Both the position numbers and the translations under genes were made by a program. The notes under the pieces were generated by a model. It did no database searches. It was given only the letters and a program-made list of their open reading frames with translations, and was not told where the DNA came from. Shown here one piece after another: positions 6,206 through 29,276 of a stretch of 33,961 nucleotides of DNA; the stretch's first letter is position 1; each line of letters begins with the position of its first letter. This stretch comes from Opitutia bacterium (GTDB lineage Bacteria; Verrucomicrobiota; Verrucomicrobiia; Opitutales; T3Sed10-336), in NCBI GenBank assembly GCA_003566375.1, contig PXDN01000412.1:1-33961 (forward strand), read 5' to 3'.

Positions 6206-6566
<361 letters not shown>

Positions 6567-7162: not shown

Positions 7163-8551
<1,389 letters not shown>

Positions 8552-8576
8552 GCGGGTATGCTCACTTTCTGTTTCC

Positions 8577-9983
8577 ATGATTGTATCCATTCTCCAACGC
8601 CATGCCGGGGCCGTGCCGCCGGCGCTTCTGCTTTTCTTTTCGGCAACCGCGGCCGTTGTTTCCGCGCGGGCCGACACCGCCGATCTGTTTGCCGAACGGG
8701 TCGCTTCGGTGGTGGCGGTGGAATATTACATCGAGAGCGAGACGGACCGCCGTCCGGCCAGCGAGGTCGGGGTGGTGGCCGACGGGGACGGTTTGATTCT
8801 TTTGCTGGACCGTTCCGTCCCCGGCTGGGTGCCGCCGGTCCGCTTGAAGGAGTTCAAGGTGTCCACGCTCGGCAAACGCGAGGAATTTTCCGCCGAGTAT
8901 CTGGGGCAGGATTCCCTCAGCGGTTTTCATTTTCTGCGGGTGGCGGAGGAGGGCCGGGACGGGCTCGTTCCGGTGACAAACTGGGAACCGGGCGATCCCC
9001 GGCTGGGCGGGGATTTGTTTGGCATCGGGGTGATGGGAAAAGAGGTCGATTTTGAACCGTATTATTTGGCCAGCCGCTTTTCCATGCTCCGGGAACTTCC
9101 CCAGCATCTCGGCTTCGCGGTCGAGCCGGTGGCCAGCCCGGGATCCCTGGTGTTTCTCGCCGACGGGCGGCTGGCGGGCTGGGCGACCGGCGCCTACGCC
9201 TTGGAACACATGCTGCACGCGGGCGACGACCGGTTTCCGGTGGTGTTGCAGGAGATGCGCCGCACGGCGGTTTTTCTTCCGCACGGGGAGGTGCTGCCCT
9301 ACCTGGACCGCGTGCCGGCTTCTCCGGACCGTTTGGAAAACGCCTGGATCGGGGTGACCAGCCTCCAGCCGGTGGAGCGGGAGGTGGCCCGGTTTCTCGG
9401 CTTGGAAGGGCGGGGAGCGGTGGTGGTGAGCGAGGTGGTGCCGGGCGGTCCGGCGGACGAAGCCGGCTTGAAACAAGGGGACATCGTGGTCGGAATCGAC
9501 GGCGAGGAGTTGCCACGGTTTCGTCCGGATCAGGCGGTGGTTCAGTATTTCCAACGGGCGGTGACGCGCGCCGGCGCGGGCGCGAAACTGACGGTGGCCC
9601 ACATGCGGGGGGACGAGCTTTTGGAAACCGTGGTGGAGACCGCTCCGCAACCGCTGACGGCGCGGGATGCCCGCCGCGAGTATCTTTCCAAGCTCGGCGC
9701 CACCTTTCGGGAGTTTCTGGTTTTCGACGGCATGGCCCGCCGCGAAGGTCCCGAGCCAGACCGGGGAGCGGTGGTGCAGTTCGTTCGCCCCCACGCCCCG
9801 GCGTCGTCCGCCGGCTTGCAGGCGGGAGATTGGATCCGCGAGGTGGACGGGCGCGAAGTGGTCGATTTTGAAGAAACCCTCGCCATGCTGAAAGAGGCTG
9901 AAGAAAGCGCCGTCCGGGACGAGTTGGTGTTGCTGGTCAGGCGCCAAAGCGAAACCTCCGTGGTCCGCATCAACCTGCGCTGA
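8577..9983 (+). CDS. Secreted HtrA-like pseudoprotease with two PDZ domains
   Basis: This 468-residue protein has a clear signal peptide (hydrophobic run to ARAD, cleavage near residue 31). Its layout is the same as the upstream protease: a protease-like domain at about 40-230, a PDZ at about 255-360 (GLKQGDIVVGIDGEELP) and a second PDZ at about 375-468 (LQAGDWIREVDGREVVD). None of the triad is kept. Where the active enzyme has TNAHVV this protein reads ILLLDRSVPG; the Asp region is LSGFHFLRV; the serine loop GNSGGPL is replaced by ASPGSLVFLADGR. It is thus probably a non-catalytic substrate-binding partner or regulator of the neighbouring protease. ATG 8577 is preferred to the earlier TTG at 8535, which overlaps the upstream gene. 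Homology to the neighbour is judged by eye. Confidence 0.82.
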   Translation: MIVSILQRHAGAVPPALLLFFSATAAVVSARADTADLFAERVASVVAVEYYIESETDRRPASEVGVVADGDGLILLLDRSVPGWVPPVRLKEFKVSTLGKREEFSAEYLGQDSLSGFHFLRVAEEGRDGLVPVTNWEPGDPRLGGDLFGIGVMGKEVDFEPYYLASRFSMLRELPQHLGFAVEPVASPGSLVFLADGRLAGWATGAYALEHMLHAGDDRFPVVLQEMRRTAVFLPHGEVLPYLDRVPASPDRLENAWIGVTSLQPVEREVARFLGLEGRGAVVVSEVVPGGPADEAGLKQGDIVVGIDGEELPRFRPDQAVVQYFQRAVTRAGAGAKLTVAHMRGDELLETVVETAPQPLTARDARREYLSKLGATFREFLVFDGMARREGPEPDRGAVVQFVRPHAPASSAGLQAGDWIREVDGREVVDFEETLAMLKEAEESAVRDELVLLVRRQSETSVVRINLR

Positions 9984-10007: not shown

Positions 10008-11402
10008 TCACAATCCCCGCACGCATTTGGCGTGGAGGTCGCGAAGGCGGTTGTCGGGATCGTAGCGGCGTTTCAGTTTCTCATAGGCCGGCCGGTTGTA
10101 AATTTCCCAGAACTCCTTCTCGGGAAAATGGGAGGTCGAGTAGAGCGACTTTTTCCCGGCCAGGTTGCGGACGGTTTCCTCGATGAGGCGGTTGTGAAAA
10201 CCATCCGGATGGCGGCCGGGCACGCTGCCCCAAAATCCAAAATTAAAATACAGTTGGCGGGGATCGACCTCGAAAAGAGAAAAGGCGGCCGCCGGGTCGG
10301 GAGATTTCGCCGGGCAAATCCAGACCGGCAGAATGCCGATGCGCCGGTTGAAAAAATCGAGAAAAGCGGCGGCGTTGCGGGCGGGGATTTCCACATCCTG
10401 AATCACGAATTCCGCCGGACGGAGGCGGAGCAGGAGAGCCAGGAGACCGGTTTTTTCCAGAAAGGCCCGGAGTTTCCAGTAGGTGGTGGAACGGAGCAAT
10501 CCCAGCGCGGCCAGCGGGGCGCGCACCAGCGGGTTTTCCATGCCGAAGGCCCGCGAACACCAAAACCAGTCCGTGTCCCATCGCCAAAGGTAATCCGACA
10601 CCGACAGGCAGTCATCGGTTTTTCGCAGAATGGACCGGTGATAGATCCGCATCCCCGTGTAGTTGGAAACCCGGTCGGCGCGGTCGGTGAACGCGCCGGT
10701 TGTGATCACCATGCCCTCTTTATCGCCGAACCAGCAGGCTTCGATGAAATCGACTTCGCTTCCCGGTTCTCGGTTGGCCGCGCACAATTCCGCCAGGCGT
10801 TCCAGCCCGTCGCGCGGGTCCGGGTGGGCGAGGTGGCGCAGGCGGACGAACGGTTTCACCGGGATGATCCGCATCCACGCCCGCAGCAGGTAGCCCAAGG
10901 TGCCGTAGGAGTTGGCGAAACCGTAAAAGAGATCCCGGTGTTCGTTGTGGGGCGTGCAAAAAACCACTTCGCCCCGGGCGGTGGCGATTTCAAAAGCCAG
11001 AGCGGTTTCGTGCGCGTATCCATGGCGAAAGGACGAAGACTCCACCCCGCCGCCCGCCAGCGCCCCGCCGACGGTGATGGATTTCAGTTCGGGCACCACG
11101 GCGGGCATTTGTCCGAAAGGAAGGGTTTCGCGAACGAACGTTTCGTAGGGGGTCATGCCGCCGACCTCCGCCCACCCCCCCTCCGGTTCCACCCGGAGAA
11201 CGCGGTTGAGGCCGACCCGGGGGAGTCGGCGGGAGTGGCGGCGGTCGCGCGGGCGGAACAAGTTGGAGGTCGTTTTGGAGAGGGCGGGCGGCGCTTGTCC
11301 GGCGGGGCCTCCCAGGGCGGCGGCCAGCCGGGTTTTGTCGGCCTCGAACTCCCGGCGGGCGGGCGTTTCGGGAGCGTTCAAGAACTCACCGCACCGACTC
11401 AT
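10008..11402 (-). CDS. FAD-binding oxidoreductase, DHCR24/TmsA (BfaA)-like
   Basis: This is a 464-residue flavoprotein of the FAD-binding-4 (VAO/PCMH) superfamily, the group that includes eukaryotic delta-24-sterol reductase and the actinobacterial TmsA/BfaA enzymes, which reduce a 10-methylene fatty acyl chain to 10-methyl. Visible features are KTTSNLFRPRD (41-53), LNRVLRVEPE, the FAD-binding PELKSITVGGALAGGGVESS (104-123), SSFRHGYAHET and DLFYGFANSYGTLGYLLRA. The start at ATG 11402 lies inside the 3' end of the upstream methyltransferase gene, a 17-base overlap. The open frame continues further upstream, but that stretch is Arg-rich and antiparallel to nothing conserved. The overlap implies translational coupling to the fatty-acid methyltransferase and supports a lipid role. 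The exact reaction is inferred. Confidence 0.85.
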   Translation of the reverse strand: MSRCGEFLNAPETPARREFEADKTRLAAALGGPAGQAPPALSKTTSNLFRPRDRRHSRRLPRVGLNRVLRVEPEGGWAEVGGMTPYETFVRETLPFGQMPAVVPELKSITVGGALAGGGVESSSFRHGYAHETALAFEIATARGEVVFCTPHNEHRDLFYGFANSYGTLGYLLRAWMRIIPVKPFVRLRHLAHPDPRDGLERLAELCAANREPGSEVDFIEACWFGDKEGMVITTGAFTDRADRVSNYTGMRIYHRSILRKTDDCLSVSDYLWRWDTDWFWCSRAFGMENPLVRAPLAALGLLRSTTYWKLRAFLEKTGLLALLLRLRPAEFVIQDVEIPARNAAAFLDFFNRRIGILPVWICPAKSPDPAAAFSLFEVDPRQLYFNFGFWGSVPGRHPDGFHNRLIEETVRNLAGKKSLYSTSHFPEKEFWEIYNRPAYEKLKRRYDPDNRLRDLHAKCVRGL

Positions 11403-12498
11403 AGCCGCCCTCCAGTCCGTTTTGGGAAAACACGAATTGAAACAGCTGGAGCCGCCGGGCGCGGAACGCTCCCGCGCAAGAGAGCAGATAATACCGCCAC
11501 ATGCGCCGAAACCGTTCCCCGAACGCGTCGCGGTGGCGCGGCCAGGCCTTTTCAAAACGGTCGTGCCACGCCGTCAGGGTCAGGTCGTAGTGGGCGCCGA
11601 AGTTGTGCAGATCCTCCGTCACCAGCAATCCGTCGGCCGCCCCGGCCAGTTGGGCAAGGGAGGGGAGAAAGCCGCCGGGAAAGATGTAGCGGGTGAACCA
11701 TGGGTCGGCGGTGGTTTTGGAGTGGTTGCACCCGATGGTGTGCAGGAGGATCAAGCCCCCGTCCTTGAGGCGTTCCTTTTGCAGGAGCAGAAAATCCCGG
11801 TAATTTTTCCGGCCCACGTGTTCGCAGATGCCGATCGACACCACCTTGTCGAAAACCCCGCGGGCTTCCCGGTAATCCCGGTGGTGGATGGTCACCGGCA
11901 ACCCCCGGCAATACTCCCTCGCGTGCTCCACCTGTTGTTTGGAAATGTTGTAGGATTCGACCACGCACCCGTACCGTTCGGCCGCGAACCGGGCGAAACC
12001 GCCCCAGCCGCCGCCCAGCTCGAGCACCCGTTCGCCGGAACGCAGGCGCAGTTTGCGGCAAATCAGGTCGAGTTTCCGTTCCTGCGCCGTTTCCAGGTCT
12101 CCGGTCCCCTGGAAATAAGCGCAGGTGTATTGCATGCGGGAGTCGAGCATGTCAGCGTAGAAAGGGTTGCCGAGGTCGTAGTGGACTTCGTCCACCCGGC
12201 GGACGCGGCCCGCGTCGCGGACCAACCGCGCCTTGGCCTGGAGGCGGGCGGACCATTTCCACACCGGGGCCAGCCGGGCATCGGCATCACCGCGGGTCAG
12301 CCGGTGAAAAAAGCCGGACAAATCCCCGCAATCCCAATCGCCGTTCATGTAGCTTTCGCCCAAGGCGAGCGATCCCCCGGTGAGCCATCCGGGGAAAACC
12401 CGATCCCGGTGAACGCGCGGATCCCAGGGGCGGGAGCCGTTCACCTCTATATCCGTCTCCGCCAGCGCGGACGTGATCAATCTTCGGGCAAAAGACAT
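11386..12498 (-). CDS. cfa: Cyclopropane-fatty-acid synthase family SAM methyltransferase
   Basis: This 370-residue enzyme transfers a methylene/methyl group from S-adenosylmethionine to the double bond of phospholipid acyl chains. It aligns by eye with E. coli Cfa along its whole length, including the N-terminal lipid-binding domain (about 1-90). The SAM loop is LELGGGWGGFARF (159-171). Active-site residues are kept: Cys126 in MQYTCAYF, Glu226 in CEHVG, His253 in LLHTIG, and Tyr304 in GAHYDLTL. These correspond to E. coli C139, E239, H266 and Y317 with a constant offset of 13. It begins at ATG 12498. Its end overlaps the TmsA-like flavoprotein, so the product may be further reduced to a methyl-branched acid instead of remaining a cyclopropane. 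Confidence 0.93.
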   Translation of the reverse strand: MSFARRLITSALAETDIEVNGSRPWDPRVHRDRVFPGWLTGGSLALGESYMNGDWDCGDLSGFFHRLTRGDADARLAPVWKWSARLQAKARLVRDAGRVRRVDEVHYDLGNPFYADMLDSRMQYTCAYFQGTGDLETAQERKLDLICRKLRLRSGERVLELGGGWGGFARFAAERYGCVVESYNISKQQVEHAREYCRGLPVTIHHRDYREARGVFDKVVSIGICEHVGRKNYRDFLLLQKERLKDGGLILLHTIGCNHSKTTADPWFTRYIFPGGFLPSLAQLAGAADGLLVTEDLHNFGAHYDLTLTAWHDRFEKAWPRHRDAFGERFRRMWRYYLLSCAGAFRARRLQLFQFVFSQNGLEGGYESVR

Positions 12499-12650: not shown

Positions 12651-12726
12651 GCCTCTCTAGCTCAATTGGCAGAGCAGTTGACTCTTAATCAATTGGTTCC
12701 GGGTTCGAGTCCCGGGGGGGGCACCA
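12651..12726 (+). tRNA. tRNA-Lys (anticodon CUU)
   Basis: The cloverleaf is complete. Acceptor GCCTCTC pairs with GGGGGGC (with G-T pairs). The D-arm is AGCTCAATTGGCAGAGC. The anticodon stem GTTGA/TCAAT carries loop CTCTTAA, so the anticodon is CTT. The T-arm is CCGGG-TTCGAGT-CCCGG, and CCA is encoded (12724-12726). Two acceptor G-T wobbles are a little unusual. Confidence 0.95.
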
Positions 12727-12930
12727 TTTTGGGAAACCGTTCGCCACCGGACAAACGGACTGACTGGAGTTCGTCTCATAAAAAATTTGAGAACTGAGCC
12801 CCCGGCCGTGTCACCTCGCAACACGGCATGGAAAAAATTTGAATTCTATGTTGACGAGTGAACTCCGGTTATCAAATCTTCTCCCTTTATTCTCATTAAC
12901 GGGCGTCCAAGAGTGTTCGCGTGCTCAACC

Positions 12931-13006
<76 letters not shown>

Positions 13007-13071
13007 CGCAGGCATTCTTGCATTCTCCGCGATTTCGGCAAAACGAATCCAAACAACACAGTAAAAAGCAA

Positions 13072-14262
13072 ATGGCTAAAGGAACATTCGAAAGAACAAA
13101 GCCACACGTCAACGTGGGCACAATCGGTCACGTCGACCACGGCAAGACCACGCTCACCGCGTCCATTTTGGCGGTGCAATCCGGCAAGGGTTTGGCTGAG
13201 GTCAAGTCCTATTCGGACATCGCCAAGGGCGGCACCGTGCGTGACGCTTCCAAGATCGTGACCATCGCGGTCTCCCACGTCGAGTATGAGACGGATAACC
13301 GTCACTACGCGCACGTCGACTGCCCGGGGCACGCCGACTTTGTGAAGAATATGATCACCGGCGCCGCGCAGATGGATGGAGCCATCCTGGTGGTCAGCGC
13401 CGCCGACGGCCCGATGCCGCAGACCCGCGAGCACATCCTTTTGGCCCGCCAGGTCGGTGTGCCGAACATCGTGGTGTTCCTGAACAAAGTCGATTTGATT
13501 GACGATCCGGAACTGCTCGACCTGGTCGAGATGGAAATCCGCGAGTTGCTCTCCAAATACGATTTCCCGGGTGACGACATCACCATCGTGCGGGGCTCCG
13601 CCACCGCCGCTCTCGAAGCCAAGGATGAAGGCAAGGCCGCGATCCAAGCTCTGATGGATGCCATCGACAAAGACATTCCCGAGCCGGAGCGCGAAATTGA
13701 CAAGCCGTTCCTGATGTCGGTTGAAGACGTTTTCTCGATCACCGGACGCGGCACCGTGGCCACCGGGCGCATTGAGCGCGGGATTGTCAAAGTTGGCGAC
13801 ACCATCGAAATCGTTGGCATCACCGACACCAAGAGCACCGTGGTGACCGGCGTGGAAATGTTCCGCAAGATGCTCGACCGCGGGCAGGCCGGTGACAACG
13901 TCGGCGTTCTCCTTCGCGGCGTTGAAAAGAGCGCCATTGAGCGCGGCCAGGTTTTGGCCGCTCCCAAGAGCATCACACCGCACACCCTGGCCCGCGCCGA
14001 AATCTACGTTCTTTCCAAGGAAGAAGGCGGCCGCCACACCCCGTTCTTCAACGGATACCGTCCGCAGTTCTACTTCCGGACCACGGACGTGACCGGCGTG
14101 GCCACTCTTCCCGATGGCGTGGAAATGGTGATGCCGGGCGACAACATCAACCTTGAGATCAGCCTGATCGTGCCGATCGCCATGGAAAAAGGCCAACGCT
14201 TCGCCATTCGCGAAGGCGGCCGGACCATCGGGGCGGGGCGCGTGACCGAAATCATCAAGTAA
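13072..14262 (+). CDS. tuf: Elongation factor Tu
   Basis: This GTPase of 396 residues delivers aminoacyl-tRNA to the ribosome. The GTP site shows GHVDHGKT (19-26), DCPGH (83-87, with the catalytic His87) and FLNKVD. Domains 2 and 3 are intact ([30 protein letters not shown], and the end [10 protein letters not shown]). Unusual is switch I (about 46-67). In place of the common APEEKARGITIN stretch it reads [19 protein letters not shown], about two residues longer. It keeps the magnesium-binding Thr (Thr64) and the following SHVEYE. The start at ATG 13072 ([12 protein letters not shown]) matches the family; the frame runs open upstream through tRNA-Thr but is not coding there. It sits between tRNA-Thr and tRNA-Trp. 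Confidence 0.98.
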
Positions 14263-14281
14263 ACCAATTTGCGACCCTTTC

Positions 14282-14310
14282 GCCGAAGCCTCCCCAGTGG
14301 AGGCTTCGGC
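14282..14310 (+). terminator. Hairpin terminator behind tuf
   Basis: A perfect 12-bp stem (GCCGAAGCCTCC at 14282-14293, complement at 14299-14310) with a 5-base loop is followed by ACCGTCGTTTTC. The T-tract is short and displaced, so it may be only partial, letting some transcripts continue to tRNA-Trp and secE 36 bases on. Confidence 0.7.
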
Positions 14311-14346
14311 ACCGTCGTTTTCATTCACCACCCGCAGGATTTATAG

Positions 14347-14422
14347 AGGACAGTAGCTCAATTGGTAGAGTAGCGGTCTCCAAAACCGTTGGTTGGGGGT
14401 TCGAGTCCCTCCTGTCCTGCCA
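14347..14422 (+). tRNA. tRNA-Trp (anticodon CCA)
   Basis: Acceptor AGGACAG pairs with CTGTCCT. The D-arm is AGCTCAATTGGTAGAGT. The anticodon stem GCGGT/ACCGT carries loop CTCCAAA, giving anticodon CCA. The T-arm contains GGGGGTTCGAGTCCCTC, and CCA is encoded at 14420-14422. It lies nine bases before secE, as in many bacterial tufB-secE-nusG clusters. Confidence 0.96.
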
Positions 14423-14431
14423 TTCGTCACA

Positions 14432-14641
14432 ATGAAAAATCCATTCCGCACCATCCGAATTTTCGCGGGCGAAACGATCACGGAGCTGAAGAAGGCCACC
14501 TGGCCGACCGCCTATGAGCTGAAGGACTCGACCATCGTCGTGATTATCGCGATTTTGATCCTCGGGACGTTTATCAGCATCGCGGACTTTTCTCTTTTCC
14601 AAGTCGTCTTTTTGTTCACGGAATTGGTCATCGGCACCTAA
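14432..14641 (+). CDS. secE: Preprotein translocase subunit SecE
   Basis: This small inner-membrane subunit of the SecYEG channel is 69 residues long, within the short single-helix SecE class. The amphipathic cytosolic region is ETITELKKATWPTAYELKDS, with the family motif ELKKVxWP seen as ELKKATWP. One transmembrane helix follows (TIVVIIAILILGTFISIAD), then a hydrophobic end. ATG 14432 is chosen, because the frame upstream is tRNA-Trp. nusG starts two bases after its stop. Confidence 0.93.
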   Translation: MKNPFRTIRIFAGETITELKKATWPTAYELKDSTIVVIIAILILGTFISIADFSLFQVVFLFTELVIGT

Positions 14642-14643
14642 GC

Positions 14644-15273
14644 ATGAGCGAATCCGCTTCAGATCAACCTAACTCCGAACCGGTTTCCACGGAAAACACC
14701 GAATCCTCTCCCCACCGGGAAGGGATGCGGTGGTATGTTGTGCAAACGCTCTCCGGGCGTGAGCAGCAGGTGAAAACCTACATCGACAAATTCAAACGGA
14801 TTGAGGATCTGGAGGAGTATGTGGGCGACGTTCTCATGCCGACCGAGGTGGTCTCTGAAGTCAAGCAGGGCAAGAAAACCCAGCGCACGCGGAAGTTTTA
14901 TCCGAACTACGTTTTCATTCAGCTCCGCCTCTATGACGACGAAGGGAAATTGATCAACCGGCCTTGGTATTTTGTCCGCGAGGCCCAGGGAGTGATCGGC
15001 TTGGTCGGGGGAGAACGGCCGACGCCGCTGCGCCAATCCGAGATCGAACACATTTTGGAGCAAGTTAACGCCGCCGTCGGCAAGGAAGTGCCGAAGGTTC
15101 GCTACGAGGTGGGAGAGGAAGTTAAGATCACCGACGGTCCTTTCATGAACCTGAACGGCCGCATCGACGAAATCGACCCCGAACGGGGCAAACTCAAAGT
15201 TTCCGTATCCATTTTCGGCCGGTTCACTCCCGTGGAGTTGGAGTATTGGCAGGTCGAGCGCATTACCAGTTAA
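14644..15273 (+). CDS. nusG: Transcription termination/antitermination factor NusG
   Basis: This 209-residue factor binds RNA polymerase beta' and couples transcription with Rho or the ribosome. After a polar N-terminal tail of about 27 residues it has the NGN domain (RWYVVQTLSGREQQVKTYI to VIGLVGGERPTPL). The C-terminal KOW domain (YEVGEEVKITDGPFMNLNG to YWQVERI) follows. The HNH-like start WYVVQT and the F-P-x-Y equivalent KFYPNYVFIQL are typical. The gene is tightly packed between secE and rplK. Confidence 0.97.
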   Translation: MSESASDQPNSEPVSTENTESSPHREGMRWYVVQTLSGREQQVKTYIDKFKRIEDLEEYVGDVLMPTEVVSEVKQGKKTQRTRKFYPNYVFIQLRLYDDEGKLINRPWYFVREAQGVIGLVGGERPTPLRQSEIEHILEQVNAAVGKEVPKVRYEVGEEVKITDGPFMNLNGRIDEIDPERGKLKVSVSIFGRFTPVELEYWQVERITS

Positions 15274-15279
15274 GAAAAC

Positions 15280-15705
15280 ATGGCAAAAAAGATCAAAGGC
15301 TACATTCGTCTTCAGCTTCCGGCTGGAGCGGCCAACCCGGCGCCGCCGGTCGGTCCCGCCCTCGGTGCCCAGGGCGTCAACATCATGGCGTTCTGTAAGG
15401 ACTTCAACGCGCGCACCAAGGACCAGGCCGGCATGATTCTCCCGGTTGTGATCACGGTTTACGCCGACAAGTCCTTCACGTTCATCCTGAAATCGCCGCC
15501 CGCCGCCGTGTTGCTGAAAAAGGCCGCCGGCATCGCCAAGGGATCCCCGGTGCCCAATCGCGACAAGGTCGGCAAAGTTTCCCGCAAGCAGTTGGTGGAA
15601 ATCGCCAAAACCAAAGTCAAGGACCTCAACTCCCGCGATGAGGACGCGGCGGTGAAAATCATCGCCGGCACCGCCCGCAGCATGGGGCTGGAGGTTATTG
15701 ACTGA
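15280..15705 (+). CDS. rplK: 50S ribosomal protein L11
   Basis: This 141-residue protein of the GTPase-associated centre binds 23S rRNA helices 43/44. It has the usual length and motifs: [20 protein letters not shown] with the proline-rich switch region, [15 protein letters not shown], and the C-terminal rRNA-binding domain ending TARSMGLEV. It starts six bases after nusG. Confidence 0.98.
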
Positions 15706-15758
15706 GCAATCGTTTAACCAGCAGGAGCCCTCACCCGGCGTTCGCACTGCGCACAACC

Positions 15759-16451
15759 ATGAAAAAACACAGCAAACGCTACCTACGGGCTTTGGAAGCC
15801 GGTGACCTGAAAAAGGGCCTGCCGCTCGCCGAAGCCGTTGACACTCTCTTCAAAACGCCCGCGGCGAAGTTTGACGAAACCGTCGAACTCTCTTTCCGCC
15901 TCGGGATTGATCCCCGCCAGAGTGACCAAATGGTCCGCGGCACCGTCCCCCTTCCGCACGGCAGCGGCAAACCGGTGCGGGTTTTGGTGTTCACCGAAAA
16001 TCCCGAAGCCGCCACCGCCGCCGGGGCCGAATTCGCCGGACTGGCGGATTACATGAAGAAAATTTCCGAAGGCTGGCTCGATTTCGACGTGGCCATCGCG
16101 ACGCCCGAAGCCATGAAGGAAGTCCGCACCCTGGCCCGCGTGCTGGGCCCTCGCGGTCTTATGCCGAACCCGAAATCCGGCACGGTGACCGAAAACGTGG
16201 AGCAGGCCATCAAGGAAGTGAAAGCCGGCCGGGTTGAGTTCAAGGTGGACAAAACCGCCAACATCGGCGTGGCCATTGGCAAGCGTTCCTTTAAACCGGA
16301 GCAGATTGTCGAGAACGCCGCCACCGTATTGGAGGCCATTGGGAAATCCCGTCCCGCCGCTTTCAAAGGCCGCTTCATAATGAATGTGACCGTAACCGCC
16401 ACCATGAGTCCGGGAGTCCGCGTGGATTCCGCTGACTTTGCCAAATTTTAA
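15759..16451 (+). CDS. rplA: 50S ribosomal protein L1
   Basis: This 230-residue protein forms the L1 stalk, which moves deacylated tRNA off the ribosome. Conserved blocks are [21 protein letters not shown], the RGTVPLPHG loop, and [17 protein letters not shown]. The C-terminal [19 protein letters not shown] and the end RVDSADF are also present. In many bacteria L1 represses its own rplKA mRNA; the 53-base gap before this gene could host such control, but I saw no clear mimic site. Confidence 0.98.
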
Positions 16452-16465
16452 CCGACCGAACGAAC

Positions 16466-16984
16466 ATGAGAGCTGAAAAAAAATATTTGGTGGAGGAAGC
16501 CTCCCGCCACTTGGAAAAGTCGGACTTCGTTTTTCTGGCCGACTACCGCACCGTCAACGTGGAAGAGATTGCCGAATTGCGCGGAAACCTTTCCGCCGAA
16601 CAGGCTGAATTTCACGTGGTGAAAAACAGCGCCCTGCGGGTGGCCGCCCGCGAGCGCAACCTTCCCGATCTGGAGGAGTGGTTGGCCGGACCGACCGCCA
16701 TCGTCATCGGTGGGGACAACCCTTCCGGGGTGGCGAAAATTCTCCGCAATTTCACCAAGGACAAAAAGAAGCTGGAACTGAAAACCGGCGTTTTGGGCGA
16801 CCGGACCTTGAGCGTGGAAGAAATCGAAGCCTTGGCCGAATTGCCATCGCTCGACGTGCTGCGAGCCCAGTTGCTCGGCCTGCTCTCCACGCCCGCGCAG
16901 CAGATGGTCCGCGTCCTCGCCGCCGCTCCGCAAGGTCTTCTCAACGTTTTGCAGGCGAAATCCCAGAAAGAGGAGGCGGCCTGA
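16466..16984 (+). CDS. rplJ: 50S ribosomal protein L10
   Basis: This 172-residue base of the L7/L12 stalk binds 23S rRNA and carries L7/L12 dimers on its C-terminal helix. It begins MRAEKKYLVEEASRHLEKS, followed by VFLADYRTVNVEEIAELR and FHVVKNSALRVAA, typical of the N-terminal domain. The C-terminal helix runs AQQMVRVLAAAPQGLLNVLQ. It follows rplA by 14 bases. Confidence 0.97.
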   Translation: MRAEKKYLVEEASRHLEKSDFVFLADYRTVNVEEIAELRGNLSAEQAEFHVVKNSALRVAARERNLPDLEEWLAGPTAIVIGGDNPSGVAKILRNFTKDKKKLELKTGVLGDRTLSVEEIEALAELPSLDVLRAQLLGLLSTPAQQMVRVLAAAPQGLLNVLQAKSQKEEAA

Positions 16985-17132
16985 ATCTTTTCGAATTTTG
17001 GGCGGACGCCGTTTCAGTCGAAAGGCGGCGGCGTTTTCCCAAGCAAACGGTAACTGGTTAGGAGCCGCGGCTCTTAAACCCGCTCTCCCGTTCCAACCGG
17101 GGGAGTGACTAACCTACCAACAACACAATACC
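16985..17132 (+). promoter_or_regulatory. Structured rplJ-rplL spacer
   Basis: This 148-base gap holds several inverted repeats. ACGCCG (17006-17011) pairs with CGGCGT (17029-17034) followed by TTTT, which looks like an attenuator. GAGCCGCGGCTC (17062-17073) is a self-complementary 12-mer. CTCCC (17085-17089) pairs with GGGAG (17101-17105) just ahead of the rplL leader. Such structures could help set the higher L7/L12 output, but this is inference. Confidence 0.4.
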
Positions 17133-17519
17133 ATGGCAGACATCAGCAAAGAACAAGTAATTGAATGGCTTAGCAATCAATCCGTCCTCGAGGTGGCCGG
17201 CTTGGTCAAAGACCTGGAGGAGAAGTGGGGCGTCAGCGCCGCCGCTCCCGTTGCCGCGGCCGCTCCGGCCGCCGGTGGAGCCGCTCCCGCGGCTGCCGCC
17301 GAGGAGAAGACCGAGTTTGACGTTATCCTTGTCGCGGCCGGAACCAATAAGATTGCCGCCATTAAAGAAGTGCGCGCCGCCACCGGCCTCGGCTTGAAAG
17401 AAGCCAAGGATCTCGTGGAAGGTGCTCCGAAGCCGGTCAAAGAAGGCATTGGCAAAGACGATGCCGAAGCTCTCAAGACCAAGCTCGAAGCCGCGGGCGC
17501 GAAGGTCGAAGTCAAATAA
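17133..17519 (+). CDS. rplL: 50S ribosomal protein L7/L12
   Basis: This stalk protein recruits translation GTPases. Its 128 residues show three parts: an N-terminal dimerisation helix ([20 protein letters not shown]), an Ala/Pro/Gly-rich hinge (about 37-58), and a C-terminal domain. The C-terminal domain contains [32 protein letters not shown] and [12 protein letters not shown], the factor-binding face. The end GAKVEVK is typical. Confidence 0.98.
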
Positions 17520-17887
17520 GACTCTCGTCTCCCGTTTCATACAAACTCAGTGGACAGATTGAACGATCCCGAAAGGCTTGAATTCCTATTTGCCGGAAAT
17601 TGAAGTTGCGCAATCGAAACATGAAAGACGCCGCCCCGCGGACCCGGTTTTTTTTCCGGGAACGAATAAAAGGTTGCGTTTCTTCAAAAGTTTGCGAAAG
17701 TAATCGTTTCTTCAGTTTCCAAGGTTTGCCGGGTTTCTTGCGAAATTCGGCCCCAAGTGAATTGTCGGCTTCGTGCTCACGGGGAGTTTATTTTGTCTTC
17801 ATCCACCTTTTTACGCGGTGCCCGGCCTGATGGCCGGGCAACCGCTTTCTGCATTTTTCACACCTGCGCCACCAAGAGAGGGTTTTT
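17520..17887 (+). promoter_or_regulatory. rplL-rpoB leader with hairpin
   Basis: This stretch of about 370 bases has no gene. It is AT-richer than its neighbours around 17640-17720, with runs of T. A strong hairpin GCCCGGCC-TGAT-GGCCGGGC lies at 17820-17839, about 48 bases before rpoB. There is no T-tract directly behind it, so it may be an RNase processing site or an attenuator that adjusts polymerase subunit output against ribosomal proteins. A promoter is plausible in the AT-rich part, but I could not assign convincing -35/-10 boxes. Confidence 0.4.
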
Positions 17888-20800
17888 ATGTCGGATCGCA
17901 TTAACTTTGGTAAGCTGAAAGAGGTTATCACGCCTCCCAATTTGATTCAGAATCAATTGGATTCCTATTTGGAATTCCTGCAAAAGGATATTCCGGCCAA
18001 CCAGCGCAAGCCGGTGGGGCTGGAGTCGGTGTTCCGGGAGGTTTTTCCGATCGAAAGTTACGACGGCCGCTCGGTTCTGGAGTATCTTTCCTATAACATC
18101 GTCGGGCCGAAAACGACTGAAATCGAGTGCATCCGCGAGGGAATGACCTATTCGGTTTCCCTTTATGTGAAACTTCGCCTGCGCGAAGAAGAATTCATTA
18201 AGGACGAGGAAATCTACATGGGCGAACTGCCCATGATTTCCGAGCGCGGTTCTTTCATCATCAACGGCGCCGAGCGGGTCGTGGTGAGCCAGCTGCACCG
18301 GTCGCCCGGGATCGCCTTTGAAAAGTCCCTCCACACCACCGGTAAGGAGTTGCACAGTTTCCGGATCATTCCCGACCGCGGCACCTGGCTGGAGTTGCAG
18401 TTCGACAACAACGACCTGCTCTACGTCTATCTCGACCGCCGCCGACGCCGCCGGAAATTTCTCATCACCACGTTGCTCCGTTCGATCGGTTACAGTTCCG
18501 ACATCGACATCCTCAACCTCTTTTACGAAATTCGCGACCTCCCCACCCAGGATGCGCTGGCGTATGACAACGTCAGCAACTTCGTGCTGGTGGAGGACGC
18601 CATCGACGCGCAGAAAGGGGTCGTTATCGCCCGCGCCTTTGAGCCGCTGACCAAAGCGATTGTCCGCCAATTTGAAAAGAGCGGCATCCCGACCTTGCGG
18701 CTCATCGACACGTCCATTGACGAGGGAGCGATCATCCGGGCCCTGAAAAAAGATCCGACCCGCAACGAGGAGGAAGCGCTCAAGGAAATTTACAAGCGTC
18801 TCCGTCCCGGTGAACCGCCGACCACCACCAACGCCAAGGCTCTTCTCAAGCGGCTCTTCTTCGACCCGAAGCGCTACGATCTGGGCCGGGTCGGCCGCTA
18901 CAAAATCAACCAAAAGCTCGGCTTGGATATCGATCTCGACGAGCGCACGGTCGGAGCGACCGACGTGGTTGAGGCGACCAAGTATTTGATCAAGCTTCGC
19001 CGGGGCGACGGATTTGTCGATGACATCGACCACCTTGGCAGCCGCCGCGTCCGCACGGTGGGGGAGTTGCTCGCCAACCAGTGCCGCATTGGCCTCGCCC
19101 GCACCGAGCGGTTGGTGCGCGAGCGCATGACCCTCTACGATCAAAGCGCCGATTCCATCACTCCCCAGAAATTGATCAATCCGAAGGCGTTGAGCACGGT
19201 GGTGCGCGATTTCTTCGCCCGCAGCCAGCTCTCCCAGTTCATGGATCAGATTAATCCGCTGGCCGAGATCACCCACAAGCGCCGCCTGAGCGCTCTGGGA
19301 CCGGGCGGGTTGAACCGCGAGCGCGCCGGGTTCGAGGTCCGCGACGTGCATCCGTCCCACTACGGGCGGATTTGTCCGATCGAGACGCCGGAAGGGCCGA
19401 ACATCGGTCTGATCAATTCGCTGAGCATTTATTCCCGCATCAACGAATTCGGTTTCATTGAAACGCCCTACCGCAAGGTGGAAAAAGGCCGCGTGACCGA
19501 TGATGTTCATTATTTGACGGCCGACCAGGAGGAGCCAAACGTCATCGCGCAGGCCAATTCCGACATTGACGACAAGGGGAAATTCAAAGGAAGGGTCACC
19601 GTGCGTTACCGGGGCAACTTCCTCGAAGTCGATCCGTCCGAAGTCCACTACATGGACGTTTCGCCCAAACAGCTGGTCTCCATCGCCGCTGGCTTGATTC
19701 CGTTCCTTGAGCACGACGACGCCAACCGCGCGCTGATGGGGTCGAACATGCAACGGCAGGGCGTTCCCCTCCTCAAGGCCGAGGCCCCCTTCGTGGGCAC
19801 CGGAATTGAGGAGCGCGTCGCCCGCGACTCGAAGACCGTGGTCGTGGCCGAAGAGGACGGGGTTGTCGCCATGGTCGATTCGCGCCGCATCGTGACCAGC
19901 CGGGACGGCACTTTGCCGCCGCGTTTCCAAAAAGAGCCGAAGAACGACCCGAAAAACGGCATCCGGGTTTATGAATTGCGCAAGTTCATGCGCTCCAACG
20001 CCGGCACTTGCTTCAATCAGAAGCCGATCACCAAAAAAGGACAAAAGGTCAAAACGGGTGACATCATCGCCGACGGCGCCTGCACCGAAGAGGGCGAACT
20101 CGCCATCGGCCGCAACGTTCTGGTCGGTTTCATGCCGTGGAACGGGTATAATTTCGAGGACGCGATTCTCATCAGCGAGAAGGTCCAGAAACAGGACATT
20201 TTCACTTCCATTCACGTTGAGGAGTTCGAGGTCACCGCCCGCGACACCAAACTGGGGCCGGAAGAAATCACCCGTGACATTCCCAATGTCGGGGAGGACG
20301 CCCTCAAGAATCTCAACCATGACGGGGTCATCCGCATCGGGGCCGAGGTCAAGCCGGGCGACATCCTCGTGGGCAAAATCACGCCAAAGAGCGAAACCGA
20401 ACTGGCACCGGAAGAAAAGCTCTTGCGCGCCATCTTCGGGGAAAAGGCCGCCGACGTGAAGGACACCTCCCTGGTCGTTCCTTCCGGCGTGGCCGGCATC
20501 GTCATGGACGTGAAAATCTCCAGCCGCACGGAAGGGGAGCGGGAAAAACTCAGCCCCTCCGACCGGCGCCGCCAGGGCAAGCAGATCAACGAGGATTACC
20601 GCAACCAGATGGACAAGTTGCGCGAGGGTCTCACCGAATCCCTCTCCAACATCCTGCTCGGGGAAAAAATTCCCCTCGACGTGGTCAACTCCGAAACCGG
20701 CGAGGTGATCATTCCGGCCAACCGGAAAATCACCAAGACCTTGCTGCGCAAGCTTTCGGCCGTGGCCAAGCATATTGAGATCGATCCGTCTCCCGTGCGA

Positions 20801-21664
20801 ATTAAAATCATGGAGATCATCAACTCCTTCCAGACCAAATTCGACGAGATGGAGTCGGAGAAGGAGCGGAAAATCGCCGGCATTGAGGCCGGTCAAGATG
20901 TCGAGCAGGGGGTCATCAAGCAGGTCAAGATCTACATCGCCAAAAAGAGCAAACTCCAAGTCGGGGACAAAATGGCCGGCCGCCACGGCAACAAGGGGGT
21001 GGTCGCCAAAATCGTTCCCGAGGAGGACATGCCGTTTCTGCCGGACGGCACTCCGTTGGAAATCTGCCTGAATCCGCTGGGCGTGCCGTCGCGCATGAAC
21101 GTCGGCCAGGTGCTGGAAACCCATCTTGGCTGGGCTTGCAAAAAGCTCGGCCTGCGGGTGGCCACCCCGGTTTTCGACGGGATTCCCGAGGCGGCGGTGC
21201 GCGATTATTTGAAAAAAGCCAAACTTCCCGAAACCGGCAAAAGCGTCCTCTATGACGGGCGAACCGGCGAGTCTCTCGACCAGGAAGTGGTTGTCGGCTA
21301 CATCTACATGTTGAAACTGAATCACTTGGTTTCTTCGAAAATCCATGCCCGCGCGGTGGGGCCCTACTCGCTCATCACCCAACAACCGTTGGGCGGCAAG
21401 GCGCAGTATGGCGGCCAGCGTTTCGGGGAAATGGAGGTCTGGGCGCTCGAAGCCTACGGCGCGGCTTACACCTTGCAGGAACTGCTGACGGTGAAATCCG
21501 ACGACGTGCAGGGCCGCACCAAAATCTACGAGGCGCTCGTGAAGGGAGACAATTCCCTCCACGCGGGCACGCCGCAGTCATTTAACGTTTTAATGAAAGA
21601 AATGCAGGCATTGGGACTCGATGTGCGTCTGAAAAGGGGCAACGAGTTGGCCAACGGACTCTAA
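17888..21664 (+). CDS. rpoB: DNA-directed RNA polymerase subunit beta
   Basis: This 1258-residue catalytic subunit of RNA polymerase is full length. The rifampicin region is seen at about 446-470 as [20 protein letters not shown], then [20 protein letters not shown], with the drug-contact residues (Gln, Asp453, His463, Arg, Ser) kept. Downstream blocks are [48 protein letters not shown], and the [15 protein letters not shown] region that binds beta'. The C-terminal [20 protein letters not shown] also matches the family. The start ATG 17888 follows an AGAGAGG. It is followed by rpoC after 24 bases. Confidence 0.99.
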
Positions 21665-21688
21665 ACCGGACGGAGAGAACACACCAGC

Positions 21689-25810
<4,122 letters not shown>

Positions 25811-27858: not shown

Positions 27859-28010
27859 CCGCCTCTGTTGGGGTTTCAAGTTTTTTTATCGAAATTGTCC
27901 GCGCCCGTCTTGGAAAGGAGCGTTTTTCAATTGATGCGGCGCCTTTCCCAACGCATGCCGAGCCGGTTTGGAAGCGGGAGGGTAGGGTGTTGTCAACCAA
28001 GGAGGTTATT

Positions 28011-29276
28011 GTGAAAGGACCCAAACAAACGGATGTGATTGTGGTTGGCGCCGGACCGGTCGGGATGATGACGGCCCTTTGCCTGAGGCGCAAAAATCTG
28101 AAAGTCCAGATTTTCGACACCATGCCCCATTCCAGCACCCACAGTTACGGGCTGGCTTTGCACGGAGAAACTCTCCGGCAGTTTCGCGAAATGGGGTTGC
28201 TGGACAGAGTCCGCGGGAGTCTTCATCCGTTGGATGAAATGGTGATCCACCGGGGCAATAGGGTTCTGGCCGGCGTAAAGTTGAAACCACCCGCCGGGGA
28301 TCCGGACATTCCGCCCATGGCCGTGGCGCCGCAATCCGCGTTGGAACAGGTTTTGCAGGAAGCACTGGCCGAAGCGGGGGTGGACATTCAGTGGAAGCAT
28401 CGGATTAGCCAGGTGGAGACGGCGGGCCGCCGGGTGCGCGCCGTGGCGTCGGAATTGGAGGAACGCACCCTCGGCTACGCCATTGGGCACACCGAGCAAT
28501 TCGTGAAGAAAAACCATGAATACGAGGCGGAGTTTTTGATCGGTGCCGACGGCCACGATTCCTTTGTTCGCCGGGCGTTGGACATCGACTTTCCCGAGGT
28601 CGGCCCGGCGCGGCGTTTCGCGGTTTTTGAGTTCATCAGCGGAGAGGTGGAGGATAGCGCCATGCGCGTGGTTTTTGACAACCGGGAGCGGACCAGCCTG
28701 CGGTGGCCGTTGGGGAAAGGGGCATGGCGCTGGAGCTTTGAAATTCCCGACCGCGCCGACCCAATCGGGGAGGAACGGGAGAAGGACCCGGACTTGGTGC
28801 AAATGGTCAACGACGCACCGTACCCGGTTTTAGGCGACAAACGGTTGGAGGAGTTTATCCGGGAGCGCGCGCCGTGGTGCTCCCCGTCGGTGGAGCGTGT
28901 TTACTGGCGGTTGCTGGTTCGTTTTGAGAAACGGTTGGTTTCCCGCTTTGGCGAGGGCCGGATTTGGCTGGCGGGCGATGCCGCCCATTTGACCGGACCG
29001 GTCGGGGTGCACAGCATGAATGTCGGCATGAAGGAGGGGTGCGATTTGGCGGCCCGCATTGCGGACGTGTTGGAGACCCGGGCATCCGCCGACGCCTTGG
29101 CCGAATACAACCGGGAACGAATGGCCGAGTGGCGTTTGCTGCTGGGGTTGGATGGCAAACCGGCCGGGGTCGAATCCGCCGGATTGGCCGGGGCCGAACC
29201 CCATTTGATATCCTGGCTTCCCGCTTCCGGGGAGGATTTGAGGGCCTTGGCGGGCCAGTTCGGCGTGAGCATGTGA
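28011..29276 (+). CDS. FAD-dependent aromatic-ring-type monooxygenase
   Basis: This is a single-component flavoprotein of 421 residues with the p-hydroxybenzoate hydroxylase fold; it would hydroxylate an aromatic or polyketide-like substrate using NAD(P)H and oxygen. The N-terminal FAD motif is DVIVVGAGPVGMMTALCLRR. The middle DG motif is FLIGADGHDSFVRR. The C-terminal GD motif is IWLAGDAAHLTGPVGVHSMN. The start is GTG 28011, because AAGGAGG (27999-28005) sits five bases before it. The TTG at 27987 would give an odd extension. The gene is solitary between tRNA-Cys and a convergent Fur gene, so its substrate is unknown. Confidence 0.87.
   Translation: MKGPKQTDVIVVGAGPVGMMTALCLRRKNLKVQIFDTMPHSSTHSYGLALHGETLRQFREMGLLDRVRGSLHPLDEMVIHRGNRVLAGVKLKPPAGDPDIPPMAVAPQSALEQVLQEALAEAGVDIQWKHRISQVETAGRRVRAVASELEERTLGYAIGHTEQFVKKNHEYEAEFLIGADGHDSFVRRALDIDFPEVGPARRFAVFEFISGEVEDSAMRVVFDNRERTSLRWPLGKGAWRWSFEIPDRADPIGEEREKDPDLVQMVNDAPYPVLGDKRLEEFIRERAPWCSPSVERVYWRLLVRFEKRLVSRFGEGRIWLAGDAAHLTGPVGVHSMNVGMKEGCDLAARIADVLETRASADALAEYNRERMAEWRLLLGLDGKPAGVESAGLAGAEPHLISWLPASGEDLRALAGQFGVSM

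Follow-up and report, generated by a model that had tools for sequence, protein, structure and literature searches.

The actinobacterial bfaAB (tms) operon converts oleate to 10-methylenestearate and then to 10-methylstearate (PMC5660069, PMC7791843), the second step being the reduction of the 10-methylene group to a 10-methyl group by BfaA with NADPH (PMC7791843, PMC5660069). In E. coli Cfa, Glu239, His266, and Tyr317 hold a catalytic bicarbonate, and this bicarbonate deprotonates the methylated intermediate, closing the ring (PMC11387697). Fatty acids with 10- and 11-methyl branches are used as biomarkers, and 11-methyl 16:0 marks some Nitrospira sublineages and not others (PMC3660363): it is a marker for N. 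moscoviensis, N. calida, and N. bockiana and is not listed as one for N. marina and N. defluvii. The published accounts that we found place the BfaA-type pathway in actinobacteria; the comparisons below suggest that it extends across many phyla, in which the reductase was retained and its partner methyltransferase replaced.

The gene pair and the origins of its two products

The stretch of DNA analyzed here (the window, 33,961 nucleotides) corresponds to contig C123 in a metagenome-assembled genome of 3.6 Mb. On its minus strand, a Cfa-type methyltransferase gene (12498..11386, ATG start, 370 aa) is followed by the gene of a BfaA/TmsA-type FAD flavoprotein, a predicted methylene reductase (11402..10008, ATG start, 464 aa). 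The two ORFs share bases 11386..11402, in agreement with the 17-base overlap reported in the initial annotation, and a GGAGGG stretch that is Shine-Dalgarno-like by consensus only lies inside the cfa gene, 5 bases upstream of the flavoprotein ATG (11408..11413, minus strand). These are the only two genes between a plus-strand PDZ protein gene (8535-9983) and a tRNA-Lys gene (12651), and no sigma-70-like promoter was found adjoining the pair. The GC content is 0.63 in both genes, near the window's 0.60. The same two genes are found side by side in other genomes at protein identities of 52-61%, indicating that their pairing in the window is not due to chance.

Several other features of the window were recorded. 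The pair adjoins a classic tuf-rpo cluster at 12651-25810, with tRNA-Lys, tRNA-Thr, EF-Tu, tRNA-Trp, NusG-like, L11, and L7/L12 genes as well as two large ORFs of rpoB/rpoC size, and a tmRNA with the tag ANNEEMALAA is located at 6208-6566 on the minus strand. A PF01494 FAD monooxygenase-like protein encoded at 27987-29276, which has a weak geranylgeranyl-reductase family match far under the cut-off, gave no sign of a connection to the pair.

The flavoprotein carries the motif PELKSITVGGALAGGGVESSSFR and matches PF01565 over profile positions 53-138 of 139 only, i.e., the C-terminal part of the FAD domain. It can be aligned with BfaA homologues from end to end, and over most of its length it is about 47-51% identical to the proteins preceding a BfaB-type methyltransferase in actinobacteria (Amycolatopsis, Prauserella, Microbispora, and others). 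In a phylogenetic tree, its clade is the sister of the actinobacterial BfaA-type proteins (SH-aLRT 91) within a clade with a support of 99, where the actinobacterial members are all called BfaA-type by operon content and order. Judged by its sequence, the flavoprotein is thus an orthologue of the BfaA-type proteins, and its initial description as a TmsA-like FAD flavoprotein is upheld by both the full-length identity and the tree. Clustering with DprE-like or sugar-lactone oxidases had been put forward as a refuting test for that description, and no such clustering was seen. An identity as DprE1 or a lactone oxidase was rejected, as the FAD domain alone matches, the NCBIfam matches cover about 120 residues or less, and the scores (41 bits for DprE1 and 20 bits for FAD_lactone_ox) compare with cut-offs of 500 and 397, respectively. 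Solved structures, namely cytokinin dehydrogenases and DprE1, match the sequence only around the PF01565 part, and the AlphaFold model (pLDDT 88.7) has a VAO fold, the same overall fold as those structures (TM of about 0.6). The flavoprotein presumably also resembles the sterol reductase DHCR24.

The methyltransferase scores 486.9 bits against NF008686, the NCBI equivalog for E. coli-type Cfa (cut-off 400), and matches E. coli Cfa (PDB 6bqc) at 346 bits, which is also the best fold match (TM 0.92) of its AlphaFold model (pLDDT 92.3). In a tree of 74 family members, it branches within the E. coli-type Cfas, in a subclade of 23 enzymes (SH-aLRT 99 in a quick tree) that received lower support in a careful tree, where its monophyly was not rejected (p-AU 0.61). 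Twenty of these enzymes are encoded beside a BfaA-type gene or close to one. The remaining three are an unlinked one with a flavoprotein in the genome (G003), one truncated by a contig end (G503), and another unlinked one whose genome also has a flavoprotein (G619). The paired subclade spans Verrucomicrobiota, Nitrospirota, Acidobacteriota, Chlamydiota, Myxococcota, and candidate phyla. Paired methyltransferases of the BfaB and proteobacterial types branch elsewhere, the BfaB types as a separate clade, and a common clade of all flavoprotein-paired methyltransferases was rejected (p-AU 0.0002), which implies that one reductase family has gained methyltransferase partners from at least three lineages. 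The methyltransferase had initially been described as being of the Cfa type and not of the actinobacterial type, and both the NF008686 score and the tree agree with this; as far as sequence comparison can tell, it is not a BfaB orthologue and differs in origin from the actinobacterial partner.

Residues before the catalytic glutamate

The Cfa-type enzyme had been credited with a full active site. This is correct for Cys126 (E. coli Cys139; 12121..12123) and for the three bicarbonate ligands Glu226 (Glu239; 11821..11823), His253 (His266; 11740..11742), and Tyr304 (Tyr317; 11587..11589), all encoded on the minus strand and kept in the alignment, the ligand roles being those described for E. coli Cfa (PMC11387697). 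It is not correct for the two residues before the catalytic Glu, where residue comparison places Ile224-Cys225 (11824..11829, minus strand) at the positions of E. coli Met237-Phe238. In E. coli numbering, Glu239 and Tyr317 are kept in paired and unpaired enzymes, and His266 is kept in the paired ones where aligned.

All 81 methyltransferases that are linked to BfaA-type flavoproteins or group with them have another residue in place of Met237, and all 88 others retain it, with the unlinked L132, L184, and L227 counted as paired from their tree position and 43 of the 88 belonging to a Gln266 type that probably consists of furan synthesis enzymes. When only enzymes with all three bicarbonate ligands are considered, the replacement is found in 80 of 80 paired vs. 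0 of 45 unpaired enzymes. The residue at 237 is Ile, Leu, or Val in the 23 window-type enzymes, Leu in the 52 BfaB-type enzymes, and Thr or Val in the 6 proteobacterial ones, and five additional linked enzymes outside the 81 are all non-Met as well. At position 238, 21 of 22 unpaired E. coli-type Cfas have Phe, as do all five of the solved cyclopropane synthases that were displayed; Cys is present in 21 of the 23 window-type enzymes, and BfaB, whose product is known to be a methylene, has Leu-Thr at 237-238. Separately, a Patescibacteria record (L055) was observed to place the flavoprotein gene ahead of that of an E. coli-type Cfa, the reverse of the order in the window, and to have a Met at residue 238.

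Because a single origin of the paired enzymes was rejected (p-AU 0.0002), the replacement of Met237 is convergent, and the contrast represents three independent events only (sign test p 0.25). We tentatively suggest that residues 237-238 might be a switch between ring closure and methylene release, changed independently in at least three lineages upon each recruitment of the enzyme by a BfaA-type reductase. Met237 as a universal cyclopropane marker was rejected, given that CmaA1 and PcaA, two cyclopropane synthases of mycobacteria, carry Ala at this position, so that Met is not required for ring closure in these more distant relatives, and that Met is kept in UfaM-like enzymes. Thr138 was also considered as a unique mark of paired enzymes and rejected, as it is present in 12 unpaired enzymes. 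A convergent active-site change of this kind would offer a simple mutagenesis handle on ring vs. branch in the Cfa family, and a ring-or-branch determinant would also be useful for making branched lubricant fatty acids.

These residues bear on the possibility that this Cfa is simply a cyclopropane synthase, with the flavoprotein acting on another lipid, for instance through reductive ring opening or on an isoprenoid double bond. We regard this as unlikely. The enzyme does pass the NF008686 equivalog cut-off, keeps Cys139, Glu239, His266, and Tyr317, and has a model that overlays 6bqc, but the paired Cfas, in which Met237-Phe238 is replaced, group in a subclade of their own, and the flavoprotein is close to BfaA, the substrate of which is a methylene acyl chain (PMC7791843).

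Co-occurrence of the two genes

In the window's family (8 genomes), both genes are present in 5 genomes and neither in 3 (5/5 vs. 0/3). Adjacency is not universal in these records: the Cfa and flavoprotein genes of G003 lie on separate contigs, and those of G006 (L024 8085-13019) are separated by pncB-like and pncA-like genes of NAD salvage on the same strand. Among 77 Nitrospira genomes, a flavoprotein is found in 7 of the 8 that have an E. coli-type Cfa vs. 0 of the 69 that do not, the eighth carrier having a Cfa truncated at a contig end, and in 7 of 7 pairs the genes are adjacent, with the Cfa directly upstream of the flavoprotein. The nominal Fisher p for this association is 3e-9, a value without phylogenetic correction and inflated by relatedness. 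Co-occurrence in both groups, even when the genes are unlinked, bears out the initial proposal that the two form one unit. With the operon in 7 of the 77 sampled Nitrospira genomes, the gene behind the 11-methyl 16:0 marker becomes a testable question.

Where an E. coli-type Cfa falls outside the paired subclade, most of the genomes checked are without the flavoprotein, the exceptions being G442, G444, and G446, in which it is unlinked, and G554, with no more than a distant homologue. Two observations count against the pathway proposed below: unpaired E. coli-type Cfas also occur elsewhere in the phylum (G149 and G171), and in G619 the flavoprotein gene adjoins another methyltransferase gene and not that of the window-type Cfa. 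A search of 398 genomes of the phylum of G619 yielded one new carrier.

Gammaproteobacteria with a lone BfaA-type gene also carry a solitary methyltransferase of the Met237 type, with Leu at position 238, for which no TmpA-like neighbor was apparent by eye among the adjacent ORFs. If this solitary lineage is the partner of the BfaA-type gene, it may break the generality of the Met rule. Proteobacterial BfaA-type flavoproteins were seen alone at L040, L046, L051, L058, L071-L073, L075, and L086-L088, and the solitary methyltransferases in those genomes have YTCAYF/GMLEHVG/RLHYAKT-like motifs. These lone flavoproteins have either an unexplained partner or a different function.

Viral carriage was considered and rejected, the sole IMG/VR match (L253) having the actinobacterial bfaAB order and looking cellular. 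A plasmid collection gave six matches, two of which were examined further. In an annotated record of the Variovorax paradoxus VAI-C megaplasmid (L254 2617-5191), a gene for a proteobacterial-type SAM methyltransferase shares 17 bases with an FAD oxidoreductase gene, and stress-type genes (universal stress protein and PRC-barrel) surround the two. A 128 kb contig assigned to a Woesearchaeota archaeon (L031) also holds a complete Cfa and BfaA-type pair; acyl phospholipids would not be expected in archaea, which leaves a mistake in binning or an unusual transfer as explanations. Several of the carriers are metagenome bins, and those placed in Woesearchaeota and Patescibacteria may have been binned wrongly; the frequencies given here, drawn from sampled genomes with at least 80 loci listed, are rough.

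Proposed pathway and comparison with known systems

The operon probably encodes a two-step route to mid-chain methyl-branched membrane fatty acids. In the first step, the Cfa-type enzyme would bind an unsaturated phospholipid acyl chain and SAM, methylate one of the two double-bond carbons, and release a methylene-branched chain with no cyclopropane ring, this outcome being proposed because the pocket beside the catalytic Glu is changed from Met-Phe to Ile-Cys. The altered wall beside this Glu could shift the intermediate, with proton loss then giving an exocyclic methylene. In the second step, the translationally coupled BfaA-type flavoprotein, charged with NADPH, would reduce the methylene to a methyl branch. 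We infer both the product and the position of the branch, which would be set by the double bond of the substrate (10-methyl from a delta-9 chain, with other positions possible).

The methyltransferase might instead be an orthologue of TmpB from Desulfobacter/Marinobacter, in a tmp operon whose TmpA has been replaced by a BfaA-type reductase. This would alter the origin of the two-step route proposed above and not its product, and the order of methyltransferase then flavoprotein is indeed that of tmpBA and not of bfaAB, but TmpA is similar to geranylgeranyl reductases and has no homology to BfaA (PMC7791843), and we consider this origin improbable. A furan fatty acid route in which the pair acts as UfaM and UfaD is very improbable despite a Ufa-like operon on contig C372 of the same genome: UfaD is of the amine-oxidase/phytoene-desaturase type and UfaO is a DUF1365 protein (PMC7380195) while the flavoprotein of the pair belongs to PF01565, the window showed no DUF1365 gene, the UfaD/UfaO-type genes adjoin different Cfa homologues on C372 and not the window pair, and the first of those homologues has the EMLEAVG motif of the Gln266/Ala240 group (43 of 66 unpaired homologues) where the window enzyme has His266. 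The initial suggestion of a branched or furan fatty acid pathway therefore stands for its TmsA/BfaA flavoprotein, its Cfa-type enzyme, and their forming a single unit, but its furan alternative is disfavored. The C372 locus itself (L023, G000:C372, 3735-11079) consists of genes for a desaturase, an amine oxidase (UfaD-like), a DUF1365 protein (UfaO-like), a Cfa homologue, a DUF1295 protein, and a second Cfa homologue, adjoined on the opposite strand by a MerR/B12-binding regulator of the LitR/CarH type; this verrucomicrobial locus may serve a light-regulated synthesis of furan fatty acids.

Returning to the two-step route, the pair can be set against four known systems. The actinobacterial bfaAB (tms) operon has the same flavoprotein type, 47-51% identical over nearly the full length, and is likewise a tight two-gene unit with a Cfa-superfamily methyltransferase in which the Met before the catalytic Glu is replaced. 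Its methyltransferase, however, comes from another branch of the family, to which the window enzyme is not orthologous, its residues before the catalytic Glu are Leu-Thr instead of Ile-Cys, and its order is bfaA then bfaB, whereas the Cfa gene comes first in the window. The tmpBA genes of Desulfobacter, Marinobacter, and Thiohalospira share the gene order and the combination of a Cfa-type methyltransferase with a flavoprotein, but TmpA is geranylgeranyl-reductase-like and not BfaA-like (PMC7791843), in contrast to the PF01565 flavoprotein of the window. E. coli Cfa (6bqc) shares the family, the two-domain fold, and the bicarbonate ligands with the window enzyme, which differs in being paired with a reductase and in the changes of Met237-Phe238 to Ile-Cys and of Ser138 to Thr. 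The ufaM/ufaD/ufaO genes also combine a Cfa-like methyltransferase with a flavoprotein, but one of another family and with a DUF1365 partner. The pair in the window would work like bfaAB yet lies outside it by methyltransferase orthology and gene order, and it differs from tmpBA in reductase family; it is best called a third arrangement, one of which we found no published description.
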